Of a DNA stretch of 53,337 nt, positions 6,358-37,706 are shown piece by piece. The stretch covers positions 1 through 53,337 of the forward strand of contig JAFTIL010000014.1 in assembly GCA_017456905.1 (NCBI GenBank). Direction: 5' to 3'. The notes beneath the pieces are model-generated. The model was given only the letters and a program-made list of their open reading frames with translations. It made no database searches and was not told where the DNA came from. Position 1 is the first letter of the stretch. The number at the start of each line of letters is the position of its first letter. Position numbers and translations under genes: made by a program. The DNA comes from Clostridia bacterium. GTDB taxonomy: Bacteria > Bacillota > Clostridia > Oscillospirales > CAG-272.

Positions 6358-7134
6358 ATGAAAAAGATATTGACCCCTTGGCTGTGCGTTGCTATCTTTG
6401 TTGTACTTCTTATCAATCTTTCCTCTTGTTTCTTCGCCATAGATCCAGGCCCCTATTCGGGTAACCGAGATGATTTATATTCGTTGGTAACTTGCAATAT
6501 CCCAGGCGCTCCCGGTTCTGAAAATGCCACAATTGAAGTGGTAGAAACAGATGATTACGGACGCATCCTTTTCCGCTTTTCTTGTCGTAGTTCTTTTTAC
6601 TACGATGCTGTAAATAGTTTGGCAGGCGAAAGTCCGGTTAATCTCCGAGCATATATGATTTGCCAAAAAAGCTCTGCCGGTTCCGTTTATTATATGGAAA
6701 ACGTCTGCTATCTCACAGCAAAAAGCTGGGATGAATTTTCAGATGATGTTCTGACGGCTTTTAAACAAGCGAATATGTGGAACCGGGAGCCAAATGAAAA
6801 AAACTGGGCAGTATGCAATATAAAGCAAACTCCCGACTATGATTATCCTGGCGAGGATGAACTGGCAGATGTTTTTGGGACTCCCGGAGAAAATGTTTCC
6901 TTGGAATATGATGTTGTATCTGTCGATGCGCACGGTAAAACCTTGATATTTGTACGAGAATTATATTCGCCTGCTATGAATCAATTTGAATATTACAAAT
7001 CTTATATAGCGATCAGCGATGAAAACGGCAAGTTTAGCAAGGAATATTCTATTGAAATCGAGGATTTTTACAATCATACCCAGAAATTAATCACTCTTAA
7101 AGAGCTTGTAGGATGGGCACCGATCACAAAATAA
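6358..7134 (+). CDS. Lipoprotein, unknown function
   Basis: A 258-residue protein with a type II signal peptide (MKKILTPWLC through lipobox LSSC, residues 21-24) and a mature region of about 235 residues rich in Tyr, Asp and Asn. It resembles the preceding lipoprotein in signal peptide and composition but not clearly in sequence. AAAGGAG stands 7 bases before ATG 6358. It is the last sizeable gene of the GntR-ABC run. No catalytic motif seen. Confidence 0.75.
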   Translation: MKKILTPWLCVAIFVVLLINLSSCFFAIDPGPYSGNRDDLYSLVTCNIPGAPGSENATIEVVETDDYGRILFRFSCRSSFYYDAVNSLAGESPVNLRAYMICQKSSAGSVYYMENVCYLTAKSWDEFSDDVLTAFKQANMWNREPNEKNWAVCNIKQTPDYDYPGEDELADVFGTPGENVSLEYDVVSVDAHGKTLIFVRELYSPAMNQFEYYKSYIAISDENGKFSKEYSIEIEDFYNHTQKLITLKELVGWAPITK

Positions 7135-7238
7135 TGAAAGATGTCATTTTATTTACCCGAACCGCAAAATTGCAGGTTTATTTTGAGCGAGTCGATGGTG
7201 TGCTGACCCTTGATCCTCATGACGTCTGTGTGCAATAA
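7134..7238 (+). CDS. Possible 34-residue peptide, stop-start coupled
   Basis: The stop codon of the lipoprotein gene overlaps an ATG in TAATG. The frame encodes 34 residues (MKDVILFTRTAKLQVYFERV and on) before a stop just upstream of the terminator. There is no separate ribosome binding site. It could be a small coupled gene, the relic of a longer one, or chance. Confidence 0.25.
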   Translation: MKDVILFTRTAKLQVYFERVDGVLTLDPHDVCVQ

Positions 7239-7245
7239 AGTTTCA

Positions 7246-7283
7246 CCCCACCGCGTGCGTTACCGTGCGCGGTGGGGATTTTA
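7246..7283. terminator. Terminator between convergent genes
   Basis: CCCCACCGCG (7246-7255) pairs perfectly with CGCGGTGGGG (7268-7277). ATTTTA follows on the plus strand, and TGAAACTTTATT on the minus strand. It separates the ABC operon from the converging deacetylase genes. Confidence 0.75.
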
Positions 7284-7288
7284 TGCCC

Positions 7289-8071
7289 TCAGCCATCCAG
7301 AAGCTCGCCTACTGTCACGAATTTGTAGCCTCGTTCCAGGAGAGCGGGGATCATGATGCGGAGGGCCTCGGGGGTGGGGCTGTTGTGACCGATGAAATCA
7401 TGCATGAGGATGATATCACCCGCGTCGATCTCGCTGAGTACCTTTTGGGTGATCTCTGCGGGCGGAGTATGGGCCCAATCACGGGTGTCCACATCCCAGA
7501 GGATGATGCGGTAGTTCAGAGACCCCACTACCCGCCGTACCTGCTCATTCATGGCCCCCTCGGGCGGGCGGATGAGGCTGGGCTTGTATTCAGCCAGAGA
7601 ATACAGCGCATCCTCACAGCCTTCGATTTCCTTGAGGATCTCGTGGTCGGCCATGGATCTCATCCCTCTGTGATGATTGGTGTGGTTGCCGATCTCGTGT
7701 CCCGCCTTGAGGACGGCTTCTGCGGCGGCAGGGTAGTACGCCACGTTCTCACCGATCATGAAAAAGGTGGCCTTGATGCCGTATTCCTCCAAAATGTCCA
7801 AAATGATGGGGGTGTAATAGGGGTGCGGGCCATCGTCAAAGGTGAGGGCGATCTCCATGTTGTCGTTTGCCTTACGGTAAAAAACAATGTCACGATCCGT
7901 CTCGGCCTCTATGGGCTCGCGGACACTACTGCCCGCCACGGCCTGTGCTTCGGGAGCTTTGGCGGAGGGAGAAAGATCAATTCCGGCCTTGATACAAAAC
8001 AGAATCCCCCCCGCAAGACAGACCGACAAGCATAACCGCCCAAGCTCTCGTATGATGCGTTTTCTTTTCAT
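7289..8071 (-). CDS. Polysaccharide deacetylase (CE4, NodB domain)
   Basis: A 260-residue membrane-anchored or secreted de-N-acetylase. A hydrophobic segment at about 10-30 acts as anchor or signal, followed by a linker and the NodB domain from about 70. All CE4 motifs are present: TFDDGP (catalytic base Asp79, metal ligand Asp80), HEIGNHTNHH (metal ligands His130 and His134), RPPEGA, and LMHDF with the late His. The family removes acetyl groups from peptidoglycan or other amino-sugar polymers. It lies 7 bases downstream of the PdaA-like gene, with GAGGGG as ribosome binding site overlapping that gene's end, so the two are co-transcribed. Confidence 0.9.
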   Translation of the reverse strand: MKRKRIIRELGRLCLSVCLAGGILFCIKAGIDLSPSAKAPEAQAVAGSSVREPIEAETDRDIVFYRKANDNMEIALTFDDGPHPYYTPIILDILEEYGIKATFFMIGENVAYYPAAAEAVLKAGHEIGNHTNHHRGMRSMADHEILKEIEGCEDALYSLAEYKPSLIRPPEGAMNEQVRRVVGSLNYRIILWDVDTRDWAHTPPAEITQKVLSEIDAGDIILMHDFIGHNSPTPEALRIMIPALLERGYKFVTVGELLDG

Positions 8072-8078
8072 GGGCGCA

Positions 8079-8885
8079 TTACCCCTCGGTCAGCTCAAAC
8101 AGGGTGCCGAAGCGATATCCCTCAGCCTTGAGGGAGGCGATCACGTCGCCCAAGATAGCGGCGTTGGTGGCAGAGGTGGGATGGAGCAGAATGACGGCAC
8201 CGTTGTGGATGTTATCCAGGATCTTTTGCTTGGCTGCCGCGGGGTCGGGCTGTTTTTGATTGTCCCAATCGGCGTAGGCAAAGCTCCAGAACACGGTTTT
8301 ATAACCGAGACGCTGGGCTTCGGTTAGCATGGCGCGGTCAAATTTCCCCTCAGGCGGGCGGAAAAACTTGGATATCTCCACACCGCACAGGTCTCTGCAA
8401 GCGTCCTCCAAACGGCAGAGCTCGCCTTCCAACTCGCTTGCGTGGCTTCCCGTCATGTCCCTGTGGGTAAAGGTATGGTTGCAGACCAAATGTCCCTCGG
8501 CCGCCATGCGACGCACCAGATCGGGCTCTGCCTCGGGGAGATTGCCCAGAATAAAGAAAGCGCCCGGCACCTCGGCTGCCTTGAGGGCGTCCAGCACCTT
8601 GGCCACGTTGCCGTTCTCATAGCCGGCGTCAAAGGTCAGATAAACCACCTTGTCCTCGGCCTCCGCCTGGGTGTGGCGGTGGTCAATATAGTAGCCGTCG
8701 TATTGCTCTACGAAGGACAGCGCGGCATCGGCACGGGGCTGGCTGTGATTTTTTGCGCGAACGCAATACCAGTTTTGGGGGGCAGAGGCGGTCGCGCTTG
8801 CCGACAATACGCCTGCGAACATAAGGCAGGGGCAGAGCAGTGAAATGATGACACCTGTCAGGAGATTTTTGATGTTGCTTGTCAT
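8079..8885 (-). CDS. pdaA: PdaA-type delta-lactam-forming peptidoglycan deacetylase
   Basis: A 268-residue exported CE4 enzyme whose sequence follows Bacillus PdaA: signal peptide (1-33), NWYCVRAKNHSQP near 38-50, VYLTFDAGYENG (81-92), GHLVCNHTFTH (131-141, His137 and His141), FRPPEGKFD near 170 and LLHPTS. PdaA removes the acetyl group of muramic acid so that the spore cortex delta-lactam can form. As in PdaA (TFDNGYE), the second Asp of the usual TFDDG motif is absent, here Ala87, while Asp86 is kept. The start is the ATG at 8885 after AAAGGAA; longer in-frame extension upstream crosses the intergenic region and lacks protein-like sequence. It points to sporulation capacity. Confidence 0.85.
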   Translation of the reverse strand: MTSNIKNLLTGVIISLLCPCLMFAGVLSASATASAPQNWYCVRAKNHSQPRADAALSFVEQYDGYYIDHRHTQAEAEDKVVYLTFDAGYENGNVAKVLDALKAAEVPGAFFILGNLPEAEPDLVRRMAAEGHLVCNHTFTHRDMTGSHASELEGELCRLEDACRDLCGVEISKFFRPPEGKFDRAMLTEAQRLGYKTVFWSFAYADWDNQKQPDPAAAKQKILDNIHNGAVILLHPTSATNAAILGDVIASLKAEGYRFGTLFELTEG

Positions 8886-29635: not shown

Positions 29636-30775
29636 ATGGAACAAAGAAAATTGACTTTTGCCGAGTCCCTCGTGCTGGTGGCAGGAGCGGGTATCGGTAC
29701 GGGACTTCTTACCATCCCGTATGCTATCAGTAAAATAGGATTTTTCGGAACATTGACAGCACTGATCCTTGCCATAGCGGTCAGCGCTGTGCTGTATCTG
29801 ATGATCGCGGATCTTGCCCTACATTCCGAGGGCCCCTTGGATCTTATCAGCATTTTGGACCAACATTTGTTCCGCGGACGAAAGCCGCTGAAGCTGTTGT
29901 TTTTCGTCATGCTGGTGCTTTTGCTGCTGGAAAATCTGGTGGTATACATTTTGTGTGCCGCCAACGTGACAGGCGCACTGCTCGGCTGGGACACACGAGT
30001 ATCTATGGTGATCTTTTACGTGATCGCTTCGGCGGTAATGGCCTTCGGTATCAAAGGTATGGGTCTGGGAGAGAAATTCTCGGTGGCCCTCATCGGCGGT
30101 GCCGTCATTCTTTTGGGGGTGCTGGCCTGTTTTCATATCAAGGGTGAGGTAAGCTTCGGCTTTGGCCAACCCTCGGTGGTCTTCGCGGTGTACGGCCTCT
30201 TCATGTTTGCCTTTTCGGCTATTTTCTCGGTGGTGCAGGTGTGTCAGCACATCAAGCGTCCCGAACTCACCCGAAAGGCCGTGCTGGGCGGATTGGGTCT
30301 GAATGCTATCATCACGCTTTTATTTTCCTTTGCCGTGATCATAGGCTCGGACAATGTCACCGAGATCGCCATTGTCGGTTTGGCTGACGGTATCGGTATG
30401 CCTGTTGTCAAAGTGATCTGCTTAGTCATGGTGCTCATGGCCATGTTATCCTCCTTCTGGTCCGGCGGTTTGGCCTTTGCCGATGTGGTGGGTGAGCAGT
30501 TTTCGATGAAAAAAATTCCCGCCTGGCTCATTTCCACGGTACCCGCCCTGCTTCTGGCCATGTTTTTACCGCTGTCGGTGCTGGACTATATTCAAATCGG
30601 CGCAGGCGCGCTGTCTGTCATCCTTGTGATCGTGGTTCTGCCTGCTTATGTTCACGCAGTAAGCTCTGTTACCAACCCATTACTGGGCAAGGCGGCACGG
30701 AGCAAAGCTTTATTGATATTTATGGCCATCGCCATCCTTCTGATGGCTGTGTCCTCGTTGATCCCCATTGACTGA
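29636..30775 (+). CDS. APC-superfamily amino acid permease
   Basis: A 379-residue permease with about 11 membrane helices. The N-terminal GAGIGTGLLTIPYA (17-30) is the broken TM1 motif of the hydroxy/aromatic amino acid permease family (tyrosine and tryptophan carriers). It starts 4 bases after the nicotinamidase-like gene, without a clear ribosome binding site, so translation probably depends on the upstream gene. It ends 17 bases before the radical SAM cassette and could import a precursor for it, although that is context only. Confidence 0.8.
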   Translation: MEQRKLTFAESLVLVAGAGIGTGLLTIPYAISKIGFFGTLTALILAIAVSAVLYLMIADLALHSEGPLDLISILDQHLFRGRKPLKLLFFVMLVLLLLENLVVYILCAANVTGALLGWDTRVSMVIFYVIASAVMAFGIKGMGLGEKFSVALIGGAVILLGVLACFHIKGEVSFGFGQPSVVFAVYGLFMFAFSAIFSVVQVCQHIKRPELTRKAVLGGLGLNAIITLLFSFAVIIGSDNVTEIAIVGLADGIGMPVVKVICLVMVLMAMLSSFWSGGLAFADVVGEQFSMKKIPAWLISTVPALLLAMFLPLSVLDYIQIGAGALSVILVIVVLPAYVHAVSSVTNPLLGKAARSKALLIFMAIAILLMAVSSLIPID

Positions 30776-30792: not shown

Positions 30793-32166
30793 ATGAAAAT
30801 TGCCCTGATAGCTCCTGCAGGTGCTATGCATCGCTATAACGGTGCCTTCCATAAGGGACTGCACTACGCGCCCATTACCCTGGCCCTTCTGGCCGCTCTT
30901 GTTCCCTCGGAGTTGAAGGCCGAGGTGGTGATTTATGATGAAACTGCCGAGGCTATTCCGTTGGAAAACGATGCTGACATTATCGCCATTACCTGTATTA
31001 CGGGCACCTCTTCTCGTTGTTACAAGTACGCCGATTACTTTCGCGCCAAAGGCAAGACCGTTCTTTTGGGCGGCGTGCACCCCTCCTTGATGCCCGAAGA
31101 GGCGGCGGCACACGCAGACAGCATTTTGCTTGGCCTTGGCGAAAAGACTTTCCCCCAAGCCCTCCTGGATATCCGTGACGGATGCCTGAAGCCTGTTTAT
31201 CACGGCTCGGGATGTGTGGATATCGCGGGACGTCCCTTGCCCAGGAAGGATCTGCTGAATAAGAAAAAATACATCACCCTCAATACCGTGGAGGCCGTGC
31301 GGGGCTGTAACCATTCCTGTACCTTCTGTGCTTACCCTGCCGCTTTTGGAAAGCGGGTCATTACCCGCCCTGTGGCCGACGTGGTGGCTGAGATCAAGTC
31401 CTTCAAGGGTAAGGAGGTCATTTTCCCGGATGTCAACTTGATCGCAGACGTGAAGTACGCCAAGGAGCTGTTTACCGCTCTTATCCCTCTCCAAAAATGG
31501 TGGTTCGGTCTGACCACCACCGCCATCGGCCACAACGACGAGCTGTTGGATATCTTCAAAAAGAGTGGTTGTAAGGGTCTGCTTGTAGGCTTCGAGTCTG
31601 TCAACCAGGAGACGCAGCAGAGCATTCACAAGGGTGTCAATCGGGTGGGTGAGTATAAAGCGCTCATGGATAAGCTCCACCGCAAGGGTATCATGGTCAT
31701 GGGTTGCTTTGCCTTCGGCGGCGACGAGGACGGCCCCGATGTATTCAAACGCACCGTGGATCTGTGCGTGGAGGCGAAGATCGACCTGCCGCGCTTTTCC
31801 ATCATCACACCTTTCCCCGGCACTGAGTTCTATCGTGAGTTGGAGTCAGAGGGGCGTATTCTGGAACGGGACTGGTCTATGTATGACGTGGAGCATTGTG
31901 TATACCGCCCCAAGCAGATGACCAAGGAAGAGCTGGAGGCAGGGATCGCCTGGGCGTGGAAGGAGACCTATTCCTTGAAAAATATATGGAAACGCCTGGA
32001 TCTGACCAAGCCTCGCACCCTCAAAAGTGTCTATATGCTGGTGAATATCGGCTACCGCAAGTACGCCAAGCACTTTGAGATCTTCGGTGCTGAGGTGATG
32101 TCGGATAACAGCGATATTCCCGATGCTTCCACGGTGGCTCAAGGAGAGCTTGAAAAATGCAGGTGA
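30793..32166 (+). CDS. B12-binding-domain radical SAM protein, cassette member 1
   Basis: A 457-residue protein of the cobalamin-type (class B-like) radical SAM group. Residues 1-140 form the Rossmann-like B12-binding domain, with MKIALIAPAGAMHR, ADIIAITCITGTS and the family motif LLGGVHPSLMPEEA (91-104). The SAM domain has CNHSCTFC (Cys172, Cys176, Cys179), then TTTAIGH, GLLVGFESVNQET (about 256-268) and CFAFGGDEDG. A basic C-terminal region (about 385-457) resembles that of its neighbours. Members of this group methylate or rearrange unreactive carbon or phosphorus centres. AGAAGGGAG lies about 9 bases before ATG 30793. Confidence 0.88.
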   Translation: MKIALIAPAGAMHRYNGAFHKGLHYAPITLALLAALVPSELKAEVVIYDETAEAIPLENDADIIAITCITGTSSRCYKYADYFRAKGKTVLLGGVHPSLMPEEAAAHADSILLGLGEKTFPQALLDIRDGCLKPVYHGSGCVDIAGRPLPRKDLLNKKKYITLNTVEAVRGCNHSCTFCAYPAAFGKRVITRPVADVVAEIKSFKGKEVIFPDVNLIADVKYAKELFTALIPLQKWWFGLTTTAIGHNDELLDIFKKSGCKGLLVGFESVNQETQQSIHKGVNRVGEYKALMDKLHRKGIMVMGCFAFGGDEDGPDVFKRTVDLCVEAKIDLPRFSIITPFPGTEFYRELESEGRILERDWSMYDVEHCVYRPKQMTKEELEAGIAWAWKETYSLKNIWKRLDLTKPRTLKSVYMLVNIGYRKYAKHFEIFGAEVMSDNSDIPDASTVAQGELEKCR

Positions 32167-32170
32167 GCCT

Positions 32171-33490
32171 ATGAGGATTTTGTTTATTACCCCTTATGAT
32201 AACAACTACCGCTACAGATCCGCTTTCAAAAAGTCTCTCAGCTATATGCCCCTTACTATGCCCTACCTGGCCGCCTTGATCCCCGAAGCATACCATGCTG
32301 AATGTATGGCCGTGGACGAGGGCGTACAGAAGACAAACTATGAAAGCATGGGACATTTTGATATCGTGGCCATAACTGCCGTTACCTCCTCCGTGATGCG
32401 GGGCTACGAACTGGCGGCGTATTTCAAGGGGAAGGGAAGCTATACCGTCATGGGCGGGCACCACGTTACCCTTCTTCCCGAGGAGGCCATGGCCCACGCC
32501 GATACGGTTCTGACAGGCCCTGCCGACCGCGTGTTTCAAGAGTTTCTTGCCGACTGGATCAATGGAAGCCCCAAACCCCGCTACGACGGCACCCATGCAG
32601 ATATCAACTCTGCCCACGTCATCCCCTGCCGTGAGCTGATGGACAAGCGTAAATATATCGGTGTTCCTACGGTCATTGCCAATTTCGGATGCACGAACCG
32701 TTGTGAATTCTGTGTCATCAATTCCTTTTGGGGCGGAAAGCACACCACTCGATGCATTGACGAGGTGTTGGATGAGATTCGAGGGCTTAAAAGCAAATAT
32801 ATTTTGTTCCTTGATCCTTCTCCCACCTCCAACCCCGTGTATGCCAAGGAATTTTACCGTGCTCTCATCCCCTTGAAGATCAAATGGGCAGGACTTTGCA
32901 CCACAGACGTTTTGGACGACCCCGAGCTTTTTGAACTTATGATTCGGAGTGGGTGCATCGGCATCCTCATGGGATTTGAGACCTTTAATGAGGATAGCCT
33001 GCAGGAGGCGCATAAGAAAAACGAAGTGGAGAAATATAAGACGGTGGTGGAGGCCTTCCACAAGCAAGGCGTCACCATTTTAGGCACCTTCATGCTGGGC
33101 TTTGACGGAGATACCCGTGAGACCCTGGAGAAAATGCCCGACTACATAGAGGAGATCGGCGTGGATATCCCTCGCTTTGCCATCCTTACCCCGTATCCGA
33201 ATATGCCCATCTTTGAGCGCTTGGAGGCGGAAGGGCGTATTCTGTCCCGAAATTGGCGGGATTATGACAGCATCCATGCCGTCTATGCCCCGAAGCATAT
33301 GTCTGCGCAGGAGCTGGAGGCAATGCTGATCTCTGTGTCTAACGAATGTTATACCGCCAAGCGTATCTGGCGCAGAGCTTTGAAAAACCGATACGGCGGG
33401 CTCATCAAGTTTGCTGTTAATATTGGCTTCCGAAGCTATAACAAAAAGGTAGAAAAGACTTTGAAAAAGGATTGGAGCGTGAAATCATGA
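32171..33490 (+). CDS. B12-binding-domain radical SAM protein, cassette member 2
   Basis: A 439-residue paralogue of the preceding protein. The B12-binding-type domain has MRILFITPYDNNYRYRS, FDIVAITAVTSS and VMGGHHVTLLPEEA (93-106). The cluster motif is CTNRCEFC (Cys174, Cys178, Cys181), and LMGFETFNEDS with FMLGFDGD follow. The C-terminus again carries FAVNIGFRSYNKK, parallel to LVNIGYRKYAKH in member 1. The gene starts 4 bases after member 1 and overlaps member 3 by ATGA, so the three proteins are probably made together. It is more alike to member 1 than to member 3 by eye. Confidence 0.88.
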   Translation: MRILFITPYDNNYRYRSAFKKSLSYMPLTMPYLAALIPEAYHAECMAVDEGVQKTNYESMGHFDIVAITAVTSSVMRGYELAAYFKGKGSYTVMGGHHVTLLPEEAMAHADTVLTGPADRVFQEFLADWINGSPKPRYDGTHADINSAHVIPCRELMDKRKYIGVPTVIANFGCTNRCEFCVINSFWGGKHTTRCIDEVLDEIRGLKSKYILFLDPSPTSNPVYAKEFYRALIPLKIKWAGLCTTDVLDDPELFELMIRSGCIGILMGFETFNEDSLQEAHKKNEVEKYKTVVEAFHKQGVTILGTFMLGFDGDTRETLEKMPDYIEEIGVDIPRFAILTPYPNMPIFERLEAEGRILSRNWRDYDSIHAVYAPKHMSAQELEAMLISVSNECYTAKRIWRRALKNRYGGLIKFAVNIGFRSYNKKVEKTLKKDWSVKS

Positions 33491-34827
33491 AGATCACCAT
33501 GATCCTGCCCGGTATGGGCAAAAAGAAGGGTGAAAAGTATCTTAAAACCTGGCTTATGGAGCCCCTCACCATGGCCGTGCTCAACACCCTCATTCCCGAC
33601 ACTTACGAGCGTGAGTTTTTCGACGATCGTATTGAACGCATCAATTACGAAACAGAGACGGATCTTGTGTTTATCACGGTGGAGACCTACACCGCCAAGC
33701 GCGCCTATCAGGTAGCTGCCGAGTTCAGGAAAAGAGGAAAAACGGTGGTTATGGGAGGCTATCACGTGACCCTTTGCCCCGATGAGGCCGAGCTGTACGC
33801 AGATGCCGTGATGGTGGGCAACGCCGAGCAGATCATCGGCAGTCTTTTGCAGGATTTCGAGAACGGAACCCTGCAAAAGCGCTATACAGGTAAGCCTTGT
33901 ATCGGCTATAAGCTGCCCGACAGAAGCATTTATGCAGATAAAATGAAGAAATATCTGCCCGTGTCTCTGGTGGAGACAGGACGCGGCTGTTATCACAACT
34001 GCGAATTCTGTTCCATTGCGGGATATTATCACTCCCATTACATACACAGGGACGTGGCCGATATCATAGACGAGATCAAGACCTGTAAGCACAAGGTGTT
34101 CTTTTTTGTGGACGACAGTATTTTTTCGGATAAGGCCTTTGCCCGAGAGCTGTTCGAGGCGCTGAAGCCCTTGAAGATCGTTTGGACTACCCAGGTCACC
34201 TTGGATATTGCCCGTGATGACGATATGCTCCGACTCATGAAGGAAAGCGGATGCGGCATGGTGCTCATCGGCTTTGAGTCCATCAACGCCGATAATCTGC
34301 GGCAGATGAACAAGGGATGGACCCAACGCTTGGGCGAGCAGGACGAGTTGATCCAAAAGATCCACAAGGTGGGTATCAGCATTTACGCCAGCTTTGTGTT
34401 CGGCTTTGACTCGGATAATGAGGAGACCTTTAAACACACCCTGGATTTCTGCCAAAAGCATCAATTCTTTACGGCAGCTTTCAATCACCTGCTGATCTTC
34501 CCCAGTACCAAGACCTATGAGTCCTTCAAGGCTGACGGCCGTCTGATCTCCGAGCAATGGTGGCTGGAGGACGGTTATACATTCGGAAAGGTCACCTTTC
34601 AGCCTAAGCAGTTGACTCCCGACGAGCTTCGCGCTTATTGTAAGTCCTATAAGAATGATTTTTACCGTTTCGGTTCTATTTTGAAGCGCGGCGGAACGCT
34701 TTTGAAGCGTACCCGCAGCTTTTGGATCAATTTGGCCTTCTGGGCCATCAACGTCATGTTCCATTATGAGGTGGATCGACGGGTGGGTATTCCCATCGGC
34801 GACAACTTAGAGGACGAGAAAAAATGA
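33487..34827 (+). CDS. B12-binding-domain radical SAM protein, cassette member 3
   Basis: A 446-residue third paralogue. The N-terminal domain contains LEPLTMAVLNTL-like LMEPLTMAVLNTLIPD and VVMGGYHVTLCPDEA (87-101). The cluster motif is CYHNCEFC (Cys168, Cys172, Cys175), followed by FFFVDDSIFSD, VLIGFESINADN and ASFVFGFDSDNEET. The sequence diverges most in the C-terminal 60 residues (NLAFWAINVMFHYEVDRR). Start ATG 33487 overlaps the previous stop; the stop overlaps the GNAT gene start by ATGA. Reaction unknown. Confidence 0.88.
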   Translation: MKITMILPGMGKKKGEKYLKTWLMEPLTMAVLNTLIPDTYEREFFDDRIERINYETETDLVFITVETYTAKRAYQVAAEFRKRGKTVVMGGYHVTLCPDEAELYADAVMVGNAEQIIGSLLQDFENGTLQKRYTGKPCIGYKLPDRSIYADKMKKYLPVSLVETGRGCYHNCEFCSIAGYYHSHYIHRDVADIIDEIKTCKHKVFFFVDDSIFSDKAFARELFEALKPLKIVWTTQVTLDIARDDDMLRLMKESGCGMVLIGFESINADNLRQMNKGWTQRLGEQDELIQKIHKVGISIYASFVFGFDSDNEETFKHTLDFCQKHQFFTAAFNHLLIFPSTKTYESFKADGRLISEQWWLEDGYTFGKVTFQPKQLTPDELRAYCKSYKNDFYRFGSILKRGGTLLKRTRSFWINLAFWAINVMFHYEVDRRVGIPIGDNLEDEKK

Positions 34828-35888
34828 GAGGAGACAAGTATCTGGCACGTCCCGAGGACGGACAAGCCATTCTGGATATTTTGGAAAGCTCGGCGTCTAA
34901 AGGCGGCATTGAGCTGTTATACACCCGCCGTCCCGATGCCTATGCTTCGTATATGAAGGAGTTTGGAGAAGCGAGAGTCTTTGTATCAAGACGGGGCGAT
35001 CGGTTAGCGGGCACCTGTGCTGAGCTTGTCCGTGACGTATATATTAACGGACAGCCTGCCAAGGCCGCCTATCTGTGCGGGCTGAAAAAACAGGTTGCAC
35101 CCGGGGAGCACGCGGGCTTTGGCCCCGATCTCTTCTTCGCCTTGCAGCGAGACGATATAGACTTCTATTATTGTTCTGTCGTTAAGGAAAACGGCGCCGC
35201 GCGGCATATGCTGGAGGGTAACCACCGCCTTCTGAGGGTAAGTCCCCTAGCGGATTTTCGCACCTATATGCTGAGCCCCAAAGTCAGGATCAAGGCGCCC
35301 GTGTACGATTATATCTTTCGTCAGGCAACGCCGGATGATCACGAGGCACTGTTGGCCTTCTACCGCGCCCAAGGACAGAATAAGGATCTGTTTCCCGTGA
35401 TCAGCGCCTTTGAAGACTTTCAAGGCTTGAGTATCAGAAACTTTTATCTCCTTCTTAGGGGAAAGGAGATCTTGGCGGCGGGGGCTCTCTGGCGGCAGAG
35501 CGACTACAAGCAATACGTGGTCAAGGCTTATCGCGGAGTTATGAAGGGTGCGCGTGCACTGAACCCCTTGCTGTCTCTCCTGGGCTATATCAAGCTCCCG
35601 CCTCGGGATGTGCCGTTGGATTTTCCCATGCTGTCCTTTTTCCTCTGCCGTGATGACGACGAGGCTGCCCAACGTGTGTTTTTGAAGGAGATGGTACGAG
35701 AGGTAAGAAAAACCGATGAAATGTTTGTCATAGGCTTGCCGAGAGAGCACGCCGTATCGCTTGTTTTGGATAAGGTGCCCAATCTTCATTTTGATACCAC
35801 CTTGTATGAGATCTCCTTCCCGTGGAGTCAACGCCCGAACAACAAAGTACGTGCCCATCATATTTTTCCCGAATGTGGGTTATTGTAA
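34824..35888 (+). CDS. Two-domain GNAT-like acyltransferase
   Basis: A 354-residue protein that reads as two GNAT-like halves. The first (about 1-150) has RVFVSRRGDRLAGTCAELVRD and a diverged acetyl-CoA site near KKQVAPGEHAGFG; the second (about 165-350) has FRQATPDDHEALLAFYR and FYLLLRGKEILAAGALWRQ (motifs shortened). Such proteins transfer acyl groups from CoA or from an aminoacyl donor. Its start overlaps the stop of radical SAM member 3, and a strong terminator follows, which makes it the last gene of the cassette. A role in acylating the cassette's product is an inference from coupling. Confidence 0.65.
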   Translation: MRGDKYLARPEDGQAILDILESSASKGGIELLYTRRPDAYASYMKEFGEARVFVSRRGDRLAGTCAELVRDVYINGQPAKAAYLCGLKKQVAPGEHAGFGPDLFFALQRDDIDFYYCSVVKENGAARHMLEGNHRLLRVSPLADFRTYMLSPKVRIKAPVYDYIFRQATPDDHEALLAFYRAQGQNKDLFPVISAFEDFQGLSIRNFYLLLRGKEILAAGALWRQSDYKQYVVKAYRGVMKGARALNPLLSLLGYIKLPPRDVPLDFPMLSFFLCRDDDEAAQRVFLKEMVREVRKTDEMFVIGLPREHAVSLVLDKVPNLHFDTTLYEISFPWSQRPNNKVRAHHIFPECGLL

Positions 35889-35892
35889 ATAC

Positions 35893-35946
35893 AAAAGGCT
35901 GTTTTTGGTCTGCACTGATTGCGTGCGCCGTAAAAACAGCCTTTTT
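35893..35946. terminator. Bidirectional terminator
   Basis: AAAAGGCTGTTTTT (35893-35906) pairs with AAAAACAGCCTTTTT (35932-35946). T-runs lie on both strands. It ends the radical SAM cassette on the plus strand and the hprK operon on the minus strand. Confidence 0.88.
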
Positions 35947-35959
35947 CGTATGTGTTGAT

Positions 35960-36964
35960 TTAGCACTTTATCCAGCGATCTGTTCTTCGAAGGATTACCA
36001 CGCCGGATACCCAAAGGGGAATGGGTGTGTGATTGATAAATACCTGCGCTGTGGTTGATCCCAGTAATGCCTCCGCGGCACGGGTTTCGGGTTTCAATGC
36101 TTTGAGCGGTAAGCCTGCGGCCGGCAGGTAGGTGCAGCGGTCGTGTTCTTTTGAAAGAGAGGGACGGGGAAGGCGCGGAGGAATGTCCACCACGACAGCC
36201 TCGGGCGACAGATATGAGGCATAGTCTGATAAAACAGAAGCGATATAATCGTAGACCCTTTCGAGCTTTGCGGTGGTGTGAGGCGGTATCTCAAAAAATG
36301 TCTTGCCACCCGCAGGGGAAAACCACGGCGCATGGATATGCTCACGGACGTAAAGAGTGGCTGTGAGCTGATGATGCATCTCCAAATGTAAAAGGGAGAG
36401 CTTGTCACTCAGCGCGGTTTGGTGTCGGAGCGCATGGGAGATAGCTTCTTCTTCGCTGATATGCGGATGCTCCGTCGGTAGAAAGGCGGAACCGCTTTCA
36501 GCCTCACGGAGGAGACAGCAACGGGGCGCATCCTTGCTTTGCGGCCATTGGACTGCCGCCATTTCGCAGAGCTGTGCCATGTTGCTTTCGAGCTCACAGG
36601 TCTGATGATAAAGGGTCGTCAAAAAAGATACCCTGAGACCGTCATAAAAGTAAACGCTCATATCGGGCGCATCTCGATGCAGGTCGACCAACAGAAGGGG
36701 AGGATCGTGGGGCAGGAGCAGTAAATGGCTGACACGCCCGTTCAGAGGATCGGGGCCGTGTTTTTCGGTTAACAGACCCTCGGATATCAGGTGCTCTGAA
36801 ATTCGGTCAGCGGTCATGCGGCTGACGTTCAACGCCTGAGCCAGCCGTGTGCGGGTCACGCTGCCTTCCTGCATGAGAAGGGTGAGAACACGCCGCCTGA
36901 GACGAGGATCGCCGTATTTACCTACTGACTCATGGGAAAACGTGGATGAAACTTTTAGGGGCAT
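35960..36964 (-). CDS. Winged-helix regulator with divergent ROK-like body
   Basis: A 334-residue protein. Residues about 20-75 form a MarR/ROK-type winged helix (RLRRRVLTLLMQEGSVTRTRLAQALNVSRM, here cited as GSVTRTRLAQALNVSR, then LISEGLLTE). The rest has the length and secondary structure of a ROK (NagC/XylR) sugar-sensing body, but I see neither the DxGxT phosphate loop nor the zinc motif CxCGxxGC, so sugar kinase-like binding may be lost. ATG 36964 follows GTGAGG by 5 bases; an in-frame ATG further upstream would overlap the PPTase gene. It is the last gene of the hprK operon and may be the regulator of this or the adjacent convergent cassette. Confidence 0.6.
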   Translation of the reverse strand: MPLKVSSTFSHESVGKYGDPRLRRRVLTLLMQEGSVTRTRLAQALNVSRMTADRISEHLISEGLLTEKHGPDPLNGRVSHLLLLPHDPPLLLVDLHRDAPDMSVYFYDGLRVSFLTTLYHQTCELESNMAQLCEMAAVQWPQSKDAPRCCLLREAESGSAFLPTEHPHISEEEAISHALRHQTALSDKLSLLHLEMHHQLTATLYVREHIHAPWFSPAGGKTFFEIPPHTTAKLERVYDYIASVLSDYASYLSPEAVVVDIPPRLPRPSLSKEHDRCTYLPAAGLPLKALKPETRAAEALLGSTTAQVFINHTPIPLWVSGVVILRRTDRWIKC

Positions 36965-36971
36965 ATAAACC

Positions 36972-37706
36972 TCACAGGGATTTTTGAAGATCAAGAGGGA
37001 GAGATGCGTTCCCTACGCAGGGTACGGGGCTGTTTTCGGGGACACAAAGAGACAGGGCGAAGCAAATATCCGTTTTAGGGGAGACTTGGATCATTGCGTG
37101 GTATAGTGTAAGCTCGTCCGGAACGCAAAGGCTGTCAAAGCCCAAGGGATAGCCTCGTCCGTCTTGCTTGGACAAGGCCTCCTTGCCTGTCCATAGGCGA
37201 GTGGCCTCTGTGGCTGTTTTATCACAGGGAAGGGATGCTAAGTAAGCTTGTTCACGAGACGTAAAAAATCTGGCGGTTAGCTTTTGGGCGCGTTCGGGGG
37301 CCATGACGGCTTCCGCATCTACGCCTACTCGTCCTTTTCCCGTCAAAAGGGCGCAGGCCACCAGACCCTCGGTGTGGGTCAGGTTGAAATCCATGGTTTG
37401 AAGCTTATGATCGGCTGTTTGGGCGTATGGACGGCCGTTCTCATCTCGATGCAGACGAATAGATGAAAGTGCCGAAGGGCAGATCTCCTTCAAGAGAGAA
37501 AGAAAACACGACAAGGCTGCAAGCCTTTGGAGCTTCACTCTCGACGGTGCCGCAGAGGAAGTGATGGACGAGAGATATGTCTGATTTTCGGGGCAGGAGG
37601 GCAAGGCCGCCGTCAGCTTGTTCTCCAACGCCTCTATAGATACGTTATCAAAAATGGGCTGTACCGAAAGATACAGCCCATGGTTATGCTCGAAATGATG
37701 AGTCAT
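36972..37706 (-). CDS. 4'-phosphopantetheinyl transferase (Sfp type)
   Basis: A 244-residue Sfp-type PPTase, which loads the phosphopantetheine arm onto carrier proteins. Motifs: FNLTHTEGLVACAL (107-120), VGVDAE (127-132, magnesium ligands Asp130 and Glu132), and WTGKEALSK (172-180). The long form (over 220 residues) is usual for polyketide or non-ribosomal peptide carrier proteins, although in some bacteria it also serves fatty acid synthesis. No carrier protein gene is in the window. Its ATG overlaps the hprK stop as TGATG. Confidence 0.88.
   Translation of the reverse strand: MTHHFEHNHGLYLSVQPIFDNVSIEALENKLTAALPSCPENQTYLSSITSSAAPSRVKLQRLAALSCFLSLLKEICPSALSSIRLHRDENGRPYAQTADHKLQTMDFNLTHTEGLVACALLTGKGRVGVDAEAVMAPERAQKLTARFFTSREQAYLASLPCDKTATEATRLWTGKEALSKQDGRGYPLGFDSLCVPDELTLYHAMIQVSPKTDICFALSLCVPENSPVPCVGNASLPLDLQKSL

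Follow-up and report, generated by a model that had tools for sequence, protein, structure and literature searches.

What do three consecutive, related radical S-adenosylmethionine (SAM) enzymes with B12-binding-type domains make when their genes are joined to a single acyltransferase-like gene? B12-type radical SAM enzymes carry out chemistry that few other catalysts manage, and most of them are uncharacterised. Such a gene group lies in a 53,337-nucleotide contig (JAFTIL010000014.1, assembly GCA_017456905.1; the whole stretch is called the window here) of a Clostridia bacterium from the Oscillospirales lineage CAG-272. We found that it is a genuine operon coding for an amino-acid permease, three related radical SAM enzymes (A, B and E) and a GNAT-like, acyltransferase-like protein, and that it is one version of a modular unit seen, with as many as five such enzymes, in Clostridia of the gut and in a few distant bacteria. 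Our tentative reading, which we rate as somewhat short of an even chance, is that this modular biosynthetic operon makes an amide or acyl-amino-acid-like small molecule, with the radical SAM enzymes performing successive anaerobic C-H chemistry.

The window carries a five-gene operon

A first-pass annotation of the window had described a cassette of four genes, three encoding radical SAM proteins with B12-binding-type N-terminal domains and one encoding a GNAT-like protein. These four genes were borne out as intact by the open reading frames (ORFs), their motifs, and Pfam matches to Radical_SAM and B12-binding. The extent of the cassette was wrong, in that the permease gene directly upstream also belongs to it (Table 1); the 17 bases from the permease stop to the A start are the widest gap inside the cassette. 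The other junctions are as first described, with a 4-base gap between A and B (32167-32170) and ATGA overlaps at 33487 (B/E) and 34824 (E/GNAT). For B, we used the ATG at 32171, which matches the start site in relatives, while the mechanical ORF list begins at 32123. The strong hairpin said to close the cassette was recovered as well, with a folding energy of -26.5 kcal/mol and a z score of -4.82 that none of 200 shuffles equalled. A simple terminator scan did not list this hairpin among its sites and gave no excess of such sites. The hairpin has T-runs on both strands and may also serve the convergent gene. No polyketide synthase (PKS) or nonribosomal peptide synthetase (NRPS) gene was found by Pfam in the five cassette proteins and three flanking proteins; this result, the gap widths and a comparison of small ORFs (below) all agree with the earlier statement that the cassette holds no PKS, NRPS or precursor gene.

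Table 1. Positions of the cassette genes and of other features mentioned in the text
Feature	Record	Position	Strand	Basis or remark
HAAAP-type (Trp/Tyr) amino-acid permease, first cassette gene	Window	29636..30775	+	PF03222 E 1.5e-8
Orthogroup A (r1), B12-binding-type N-terminal domain and radical SAM	Window	30793..32166	+	Pfam, trees; 457 aa
Orthogroup B (r2), B12-binding-type N-terminal domain and radical SAM, optional	Window	32171..33490	+	Pfam, trees; 439 aa
Orthogroup E (r3), B12-binding-type N-terminal domain and radical SAM	Window	33487..34827	+	Pfam; 446 aa
GNAT-like protein of an acyltransferase family, two GNAT domains possible	Window	34824..35888	+	354 aa; YTRRPDAY, conserved C-terminal E...L
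Strong terminator-like hairpin 3' of the GNAT gene	Window	35886..35955	.	Fold energy vs shuffles, T-runs
Gene with winged-helix N terminus, convergent to the cassette	Window	35960-36994	-	
4'-Phosphopantetheinyl transferase gene, convergent to the cassette	Window	36972-37706	-	
tRNA after GNAT	L050	11227-11313		tRNA scan
tRNA after GNAT	L056	11193-11267		tRNA scan
tRNA after GNAT	L073	9918-9990		tRNA scan
tRNA after GNAT	L078	11128-11203		tRNA scan
144-aa ORF between A and E	L077 (UASB270)	8085-8519		
Acinetobacter EmrAB-type pump, partner, GH3, TolC-type gene, GNAT relative	L119; L121	7138-14817 (L119)		Annotated records
240-aa partner relative beside apparent reductase gene	L120 (Azospirillum)	6374-8720		By eye (reductase)

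The operon is one version of a modular unit

Next, we compared the architecture of related loci. A scan of species-representative contigs gave 36 named loci; they were found via the GNAT gene, which is therefore present in all of them by construction, and the tally excludes L041-L046 and L088. Most come from metagenome-assembled Clostridia; the outliers bear the labels Planctomycetota/Phycisphaerae, WOR-3 and UASB270. Radical SAM genes were present in 26 of the 36 loci, and in all 26 an E gene lay directly 5' of the GNAT gene; A and E occurred together with GNAT in 24 loci. The window type, permease-A-B-E-GNAT, was found in 8 loci and additionally in L047, where B is split into two ORFs. Five loci had permease-A-E-GNAT (plus one with B placed 3' of GNAT), four had permease-A-C-D-E-GNAT, three had A-E-GNAT, and permease-A-B-C-D-E-GNAT, A-C-D-E-GNAT, D-B-E-GNAT and E-GNAT were each seen once. 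The remaining loci had permease-GNAT (3/36) or GNAT alone (7/36). B was missing from the A-E-only and A-C-D-E loci, and the gene order was mostly fixed, with L049 and L066 as exceptions. The conserved unit is a permease, A, optional B, C and D, E and GNAT, among otherwise varied neighbours. The neighbourhood is conserved, as the first-pass proposal required, but the "3+1" gene order is ruled out as the conserved unit by this tally; the exact gene set of the window was seen in 8 of 36 loci, or 9 if the split B is counted.

The varied character of the surroundings was seen at two ORF sizes. Neighbour counts exclude L054, L057 and L075 (the same records as L041, L043 and L042, respectively) and L083, whose E is identical to that of L078. 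Neighbours of at least 90 aa recurred inconsistently, the largest similar groups comprising 5, 4, 3 and 3 loci and differing in distance and strand. For small ORFs (20 to 90 aa) lying no more than 1.2 kb from the cassette, compared across 27 loci of which six have a shorter flank, the largest similar group comprised 2 loci. At the UASB270 locus L077, a 144-aa ORF lies between A and E and may be an inserted foreign gene.

The unit is sparsely distributed. Of 245 genomes of the order, 4 have the GNAT gene, and these belong to four families; for its own family the count is 1 of 18 (the window genome and 17 others), and for the phylum 7 of 398. In a comparison of protein identities with three genomes of other families, made to look for horizontal transfer, A was 84-88% identical, compared with 56-69% for HPrK and 47-66% for FolD; GNAT was only 53-55% identical. 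A phage origin was considered and rejected, E having no match in 50,697 phage records.

The permease is a regular member of the unit

The permease gene was found in 23 of the 36 loci, directly 5' of A in 20 and directly 5' of GNAT in 3. It accompanies the radical SAM genes in 20 of their 26 loci. Of the remaining six, L049, L052 and L074 start within the cassette at the end of a contig, and no permease gene was found in L072, L077 and L081. The window permease scored 34.7 bits against PF03222 (cut-off, 22). Among 16 aligned permeases out of 24, all 16 matched PF03222 (E <= 0.1; best, 9.6e-16) and 15 matched araaP, a likeness to the HAAAP/araaP aromatic amino-acid transporters. A search of the window and 22 loci gave no T-box or riboswitch at gathering score that could name an amino acid. 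In L062, L063 and L065, the permease gene stands directly beside GNAT without radical SAM genes in between, perhaps a reduced version of the unit.

A, B and E are old paralogues outside the characterised subfamilies

All three radical SAM proteins matched Pfam Radical_SAM (E values of 3e-18, 2.9e-21 and 6.8e-21 for A, B and E, respectively) and B12-binding (PF02310; 1.4e-9, 1.1e-5 and 6.4e-7). For PF02310, A was over the curated cut-off, and B and E were below it, E just reaching it in a frame search. The cluster-binding motifs are CNHSCTFC, CTNRCEFC and CYHNCEFC, accompanied by GGVH, GGHH and GGYH; GCxxxCxxC is retained in 82 of the 84 radical SAM ORFs of the window and its relatives, the two misses being fragments. 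Pairwise identity among A, B and E of the window was 33-39%, and orthologues in different families were up to 75-88% identical (80-89% for A in nearer relatives). The three genes therefore go back to old duplications rather than recent ones.

The five orthogroups A to E separated in two quick trees. The radical SAM alignment set consisted of 34 hand-chosen proteins, and L054, L057, L075 and ORFs of at most 250 aa were left out of the first tree. In that tree, support by the Shimodaira-Hasegawa-like approximate likelihood ratio test was 94 to 100 for all five orthogroups; in the second tree, to which more distant members had been added, it was 99 to 100 for B, C and D, and 87 and 89 for A and E.

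Membership of a characterised subfamily with a known substrate, which would have refuted the first-pass proposal, was not indicated by the NCBIfam scores. Among the best 25 of the 28 (A), 29 (B) and 31 (E) matching families, every score was far below its cut-off. The best scores were 97.4 of 577.6 bits for A (HpnJ), 92.2 of 481.35 for B (BchE) and 106.2 of 577.6 for E (HpnJ), and all three proteins stayed below the cut-offs of characterised subfamilies, including HpnJ, BchE, PhpK, AprD4, HpnR and KedN5. The proteins share with class B radical SAM enzymes such as BchE, HpnJ, PhpK and AprD4 a domain of B12-binding type in front of a CxxxCxxC-bearing radical SAM domain, and these families supply some of the best sub-threshold matches. 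They differ in scoring far below the cut-offs (89-106 of 577.6 bits for HpnJ) and in occurring as up to five tandem paralogues with a permease and a GNAT protein. Among solved structures, 6fd2, an oxidoreductase of the apramycin pathway that we take to be AprD4, was the sole one matched by B and ranked first for the A-E profile, followed by 9ccb and the tryptophan C2-methyltransferase 6wte, with TokK and CysS lower.

Cobalamin use by the radical SAM enzymes is likely. The host encodes two further B12-domain proteins over the cut-off and has one cobalamin riboswitch just over its cut-off; no CobS match was found in its genome. Across four cassette genomes, CobS was present in one and a cobalamin riboswitch in three, two of these over the cut-off. 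We dropped cobalamin self-sufficiency as support, since CobS was found in only one of the four. Methylation, ring contraction, and thioether and ring formation have been recorded for such B12-type radical SAM enzymes in a review (PMC13331322). Because the reactions described there are so diverse, the type of reaction cannot be read from the family alone.

The GNAT-like family mostly resembles generic acetyltransferases

The GNAT-like protein of the window had no Pfam match at 1e-3 and scored 17.7 of the 25 bits required for Acetyltransf_9. Its family was more informative: among 33 of the 41 GNAT proteins, that of the window among them, 26 matched Acetyltransf_9 (E <= 0.5; best, 2.9e-7), and 10 matched Acetyltransf_1, for which a Citrobacter copy reached 21.0 bits against a cut-off of 20.7. 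The description as GNAT-like is favoured by the family matches; the two-domain structure first proposed is only weakly supported, a comparison of the N and C halves giving an HHalign probability of 52%. GNAT-type N-acyl amino acid synthases such as OlsB and FeeM have a GNAT fold and couple acyl groups to amino acids. Their family was absent from the Pfam matches of the window protein and its relatives, which were mainly to generic acetyltransferase models; Gly_acyl_tr_C, an amino-acid N-acyltransferase model, was matched by 1 of the 33 members (E 5.1e-4). The protein ends in ECGLL (35871-35885), of which E350 and L354 are nearly invariant (at least 90% of the 33 members), which is unusual for such a tail.

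Distant relatives combine the GNAT gene with a GH3-type ligase

At distant E-GNAT loci, we found a gene of the GH3 family (PF03321; E 3e-47 in WOR-3) together with a gene for a 240-residue partner without a Pfam match, and no permease. GH3 and the partner adjoin E-GNAT or A-E-GNAT in L081, L089, L091, L102 and L103. The order is partner-GH3-A-E-GNAT in genomes G478, G712 and G722 (with a B-type gene in front in G722), A-E-GNAT-partner-GH3 in G354 and E-GNAT-partner-GH3 in WOR-3. The partner was present in 4 of the 398 genomes of the phylum, all of them among the 7 with GNAT; it adjoins GNAT in G354 and G478 and lies on a separate contig in G399 and G554. The idea that the partner is itself a GNAT was not supported. 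For one bacterial GH3 protein, the ten listed matches to solved structures were all auxin-, jasmonate-, benzoate- or acyl-acid-type GH3 amido synthetases. These ligases resemble JAR1, GH3.12 and GH3.5 in structure matches and in PF03321; they differ in being bacterial and in having radical SAM partners, and no GH3 gene was found in the window cassette.

Three named bacteria carry further versions. On the Citrobacter portucalensis plasmid NZ_CP134684.1, from a gull cloaca, the genes for the partner, GH3, A, E, GNAT, C, D, a PAP2 phosphatase and a hypothetical protein are found, with B and a fatty-acid desaturase gene on the opposite strand. The orthogroups were assigned from the second quick tree, that of E being the least certain. 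This copy provides a named strain with an annotated record; a nucleotide search of an Escherichia coli collection with its C gene gave no match. In Burkholderia arboris (NZ_CP101525.1), the partner stands with a distant GNAT and GH3. They are accompanied by genes for a Rieske oxygenase, a flavin-dependent (FAD) monooxygenase and a metal-dependent-hydrolase-type protein, as well as three genes of desaturase type, one of which has a weak PAP2 portion; nothing in the 19 kb covered matched the A-E references. In Acinetobacter baumannii (NZ_CP064203.1), the partner and GH3 genes have those of an EmrAB-type pump on one side and a TolC-type gene on the other, and a weak GNAT relative comes next; the gene names were taken from a second record with an identical partner gene. 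An identical partner gene also occurs in two records labelled "Acinetobacter phage", of which the one read looks chromosomal, so that the label may be wrong. A relative of the 240-aa partner is also present in Azospirillum, beside what appears by eye to be an NAD-binding reductase gene.

A possible pathway and its alternatives

The links to the permease and GH3 suggest an amino acid and an amide bond, and those to PAP2 and desaturases suggest an acyl or lipid chain. In the pathway that we consider, the permease would import an aromatic or similar amino acid, on which, or on an acyl chain to be joined to it, the radical SAM enzymes would carry out successive anaerobic C-H steps (methylation, cyclisation or rearrangement). 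A and E would be the core enzymes and B, C and D optional tailoring steps, several steps presumably leading to one product. The GNAT protein would make the amide or transfer an acyl group, and in distant versions, the GH3-type adenylating ligase and the 240-residue partner would take part. In an aerobe, desaturases and a Rieske oxygenase would occupy the places held elsewhere by radical SAM enzymes. It is possible, although we think it rather doubtful, that the whole family comprises two parallel routes, one anaerobic and one aerobic, to related products of the amide or acyl-amino-acid kind, with up to five B12-type radical SAM orthogroups as anaerobic tailoring around a constant GNAT (joined by GH3 and the new 240-residue partner outside the group of the window) and desaturase and Rieske enzymes as the oxygen-dependent counterpart.

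Several observations weigh against the amide pathway. The window permease is a distant branch of the aromatic amino-acid transporters, with 35.9 of the 350 bits set as the curated araaP cut-off, and some members of its family also match serine/threonine or germination permeases; its substrate is therefore a guess from sequence. The permease-GNAT and GNAT-only loci, 3 and 7 in number and all without radical SAM genes, indicate that the GNAT protein may have other uses. A check of 28 Clostridia-type and GNAT-only loci turned up neither GH3 nor the partner, so that amide chemistry in the window is suggested by GNAT and the permease alone. The GNAT relatives of Burkholderia and Acinetobacter are only 19-25% identical to family members, and that of Burkholderia had no Pfam match. 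As for the radical SAM enzymes, dependence on B12 is presumptive: AprD4, taken as the nearest solved relative, carries the domain and is not known to use B12. The models ApyD and rSAM_ocin_1, which belong to ribosomally synthesized and post-translationally modified peptide (RiPP) pathways, were among the sub-threshold matches.

These points leave room for other explanations. HpnJ-, Tes- or ladderane-type enzymes are thought to act on lipid tails, and HpnJ and rSAM_ladder_B12 are among the best sub-threshold profiles here; together with the PAP2-type and fatty-acid-desaturase genes in the Citrobacter and Burkholderia relatives, they would fit a modification of membrane lipids in which the radical SAM enzymes act on the tails, GNAT acylates the headgroup, and the permease plays no direct part or else provides an amino acid for the headgroup. 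We regard this as unlikely: the recurring unit contains no acyl-carrier, glycerol-lipid or isoprenoid gene, the HpnJ scores are as low as given above, and none of the nine solved structures matched by profile is named as a tetraether synthase. The cassette could also serve to take up some compound resembling an amino acid and to break it down anaerobically or detoxify it, with import by the permease, cleavage or rearrangement by the radical SAM enzymes and acetylation by GNAT. The sole recurring transporter does belong to an importer family, and permease-GNAT pairs do occur without radical SAM genes, but the optional B, C and D and the links to GH3, desaturases and an efflux pump resemble product tailoring, which makes breakdown quite unlikely in our view.

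The modification of a RiPP or of a protein would require a precursor that is unseen or encoded elsewhere, or the conserved C-terminal tail of GNAT as the target. E matches ApyD (56.4 of 750 bits) and rSAM_ocin_1 (38.5 of 281.9), A and B match ApyD more weakly, and E350 and L354 would suit such a target. However, gaps of at most 17 bases give no room for a precursor gene in the window cassette, and neither the small ORFs nor the larger neighbours recur consistently around the related loci; we consider this explanation improbable. A BchE-like modification of a cofactor or tetrapyrrole appears most improbable of all. BchE is among the top two sub-threshold profiles for A, B and E, but at scores of 76-92 of 481 bits, no tetrapyrrole gene was seen in the recurring unit, and the GH3 and permease context does not fit. 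The lipid, cofactor or small-molecule substrate proposed at first is thereby narrowed: the permease and the distant GH3 point to an amino acid or amide, a lipid chain stays open through PAP2 and the desaturases of two relatives, and a cofactor gains little support from sub-threshold BchE matches.

The modularity would be of practical use. One small operon holds up to five orthogroups, and since these are defined and three of them are optional, the order of the chemical steps could become readable by comparing the A-E, A-B-E, A-C-D-E and A-B-C-D-E versions. Anaerobic and aerobic solutions could be compared as well, provided that the GH3, desaturase and Rieske relatives share this kind of pathway. 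The cassette looks like an apparently undescribed pathway. No description of it appears in the titles or abstract starts among the literature matches listed, from a search that most subscription journals lay outside, and passages from PMC9162365 and PMC9062424 give no account of it.

Flanking genes and isolated relatives

Convergent to the cassette lie a gene with a winged-helix N terminus and, 1.1 kb downstream, a 4'-phosphopantetheinyl transferase gene. The transferase and helix-turn-helix genes downstream and an isochorismatase gene upstream were rejected as cassette parts, being matched at no other annotated locus.

Relatives of the radical SAM genes also occur singly. The surroundings of three of them (L044, L045 and L046) appeared unrelated by eye, and those on Treponema, Paraclostridium, Aureibacter and Synechocystis plasmids had no adjoining annotated GNAT, GH3 or amino-acid permease gene. 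An Acetoanaerobium record has four such places, one of which was inspected by eye. Finally, a tRNA gene follows GNAT within 200 bases in 4 of the 40 scanned loci, and L073 has another tRNA gene 5' of the permease; such tRNA genes could mark integration sites.

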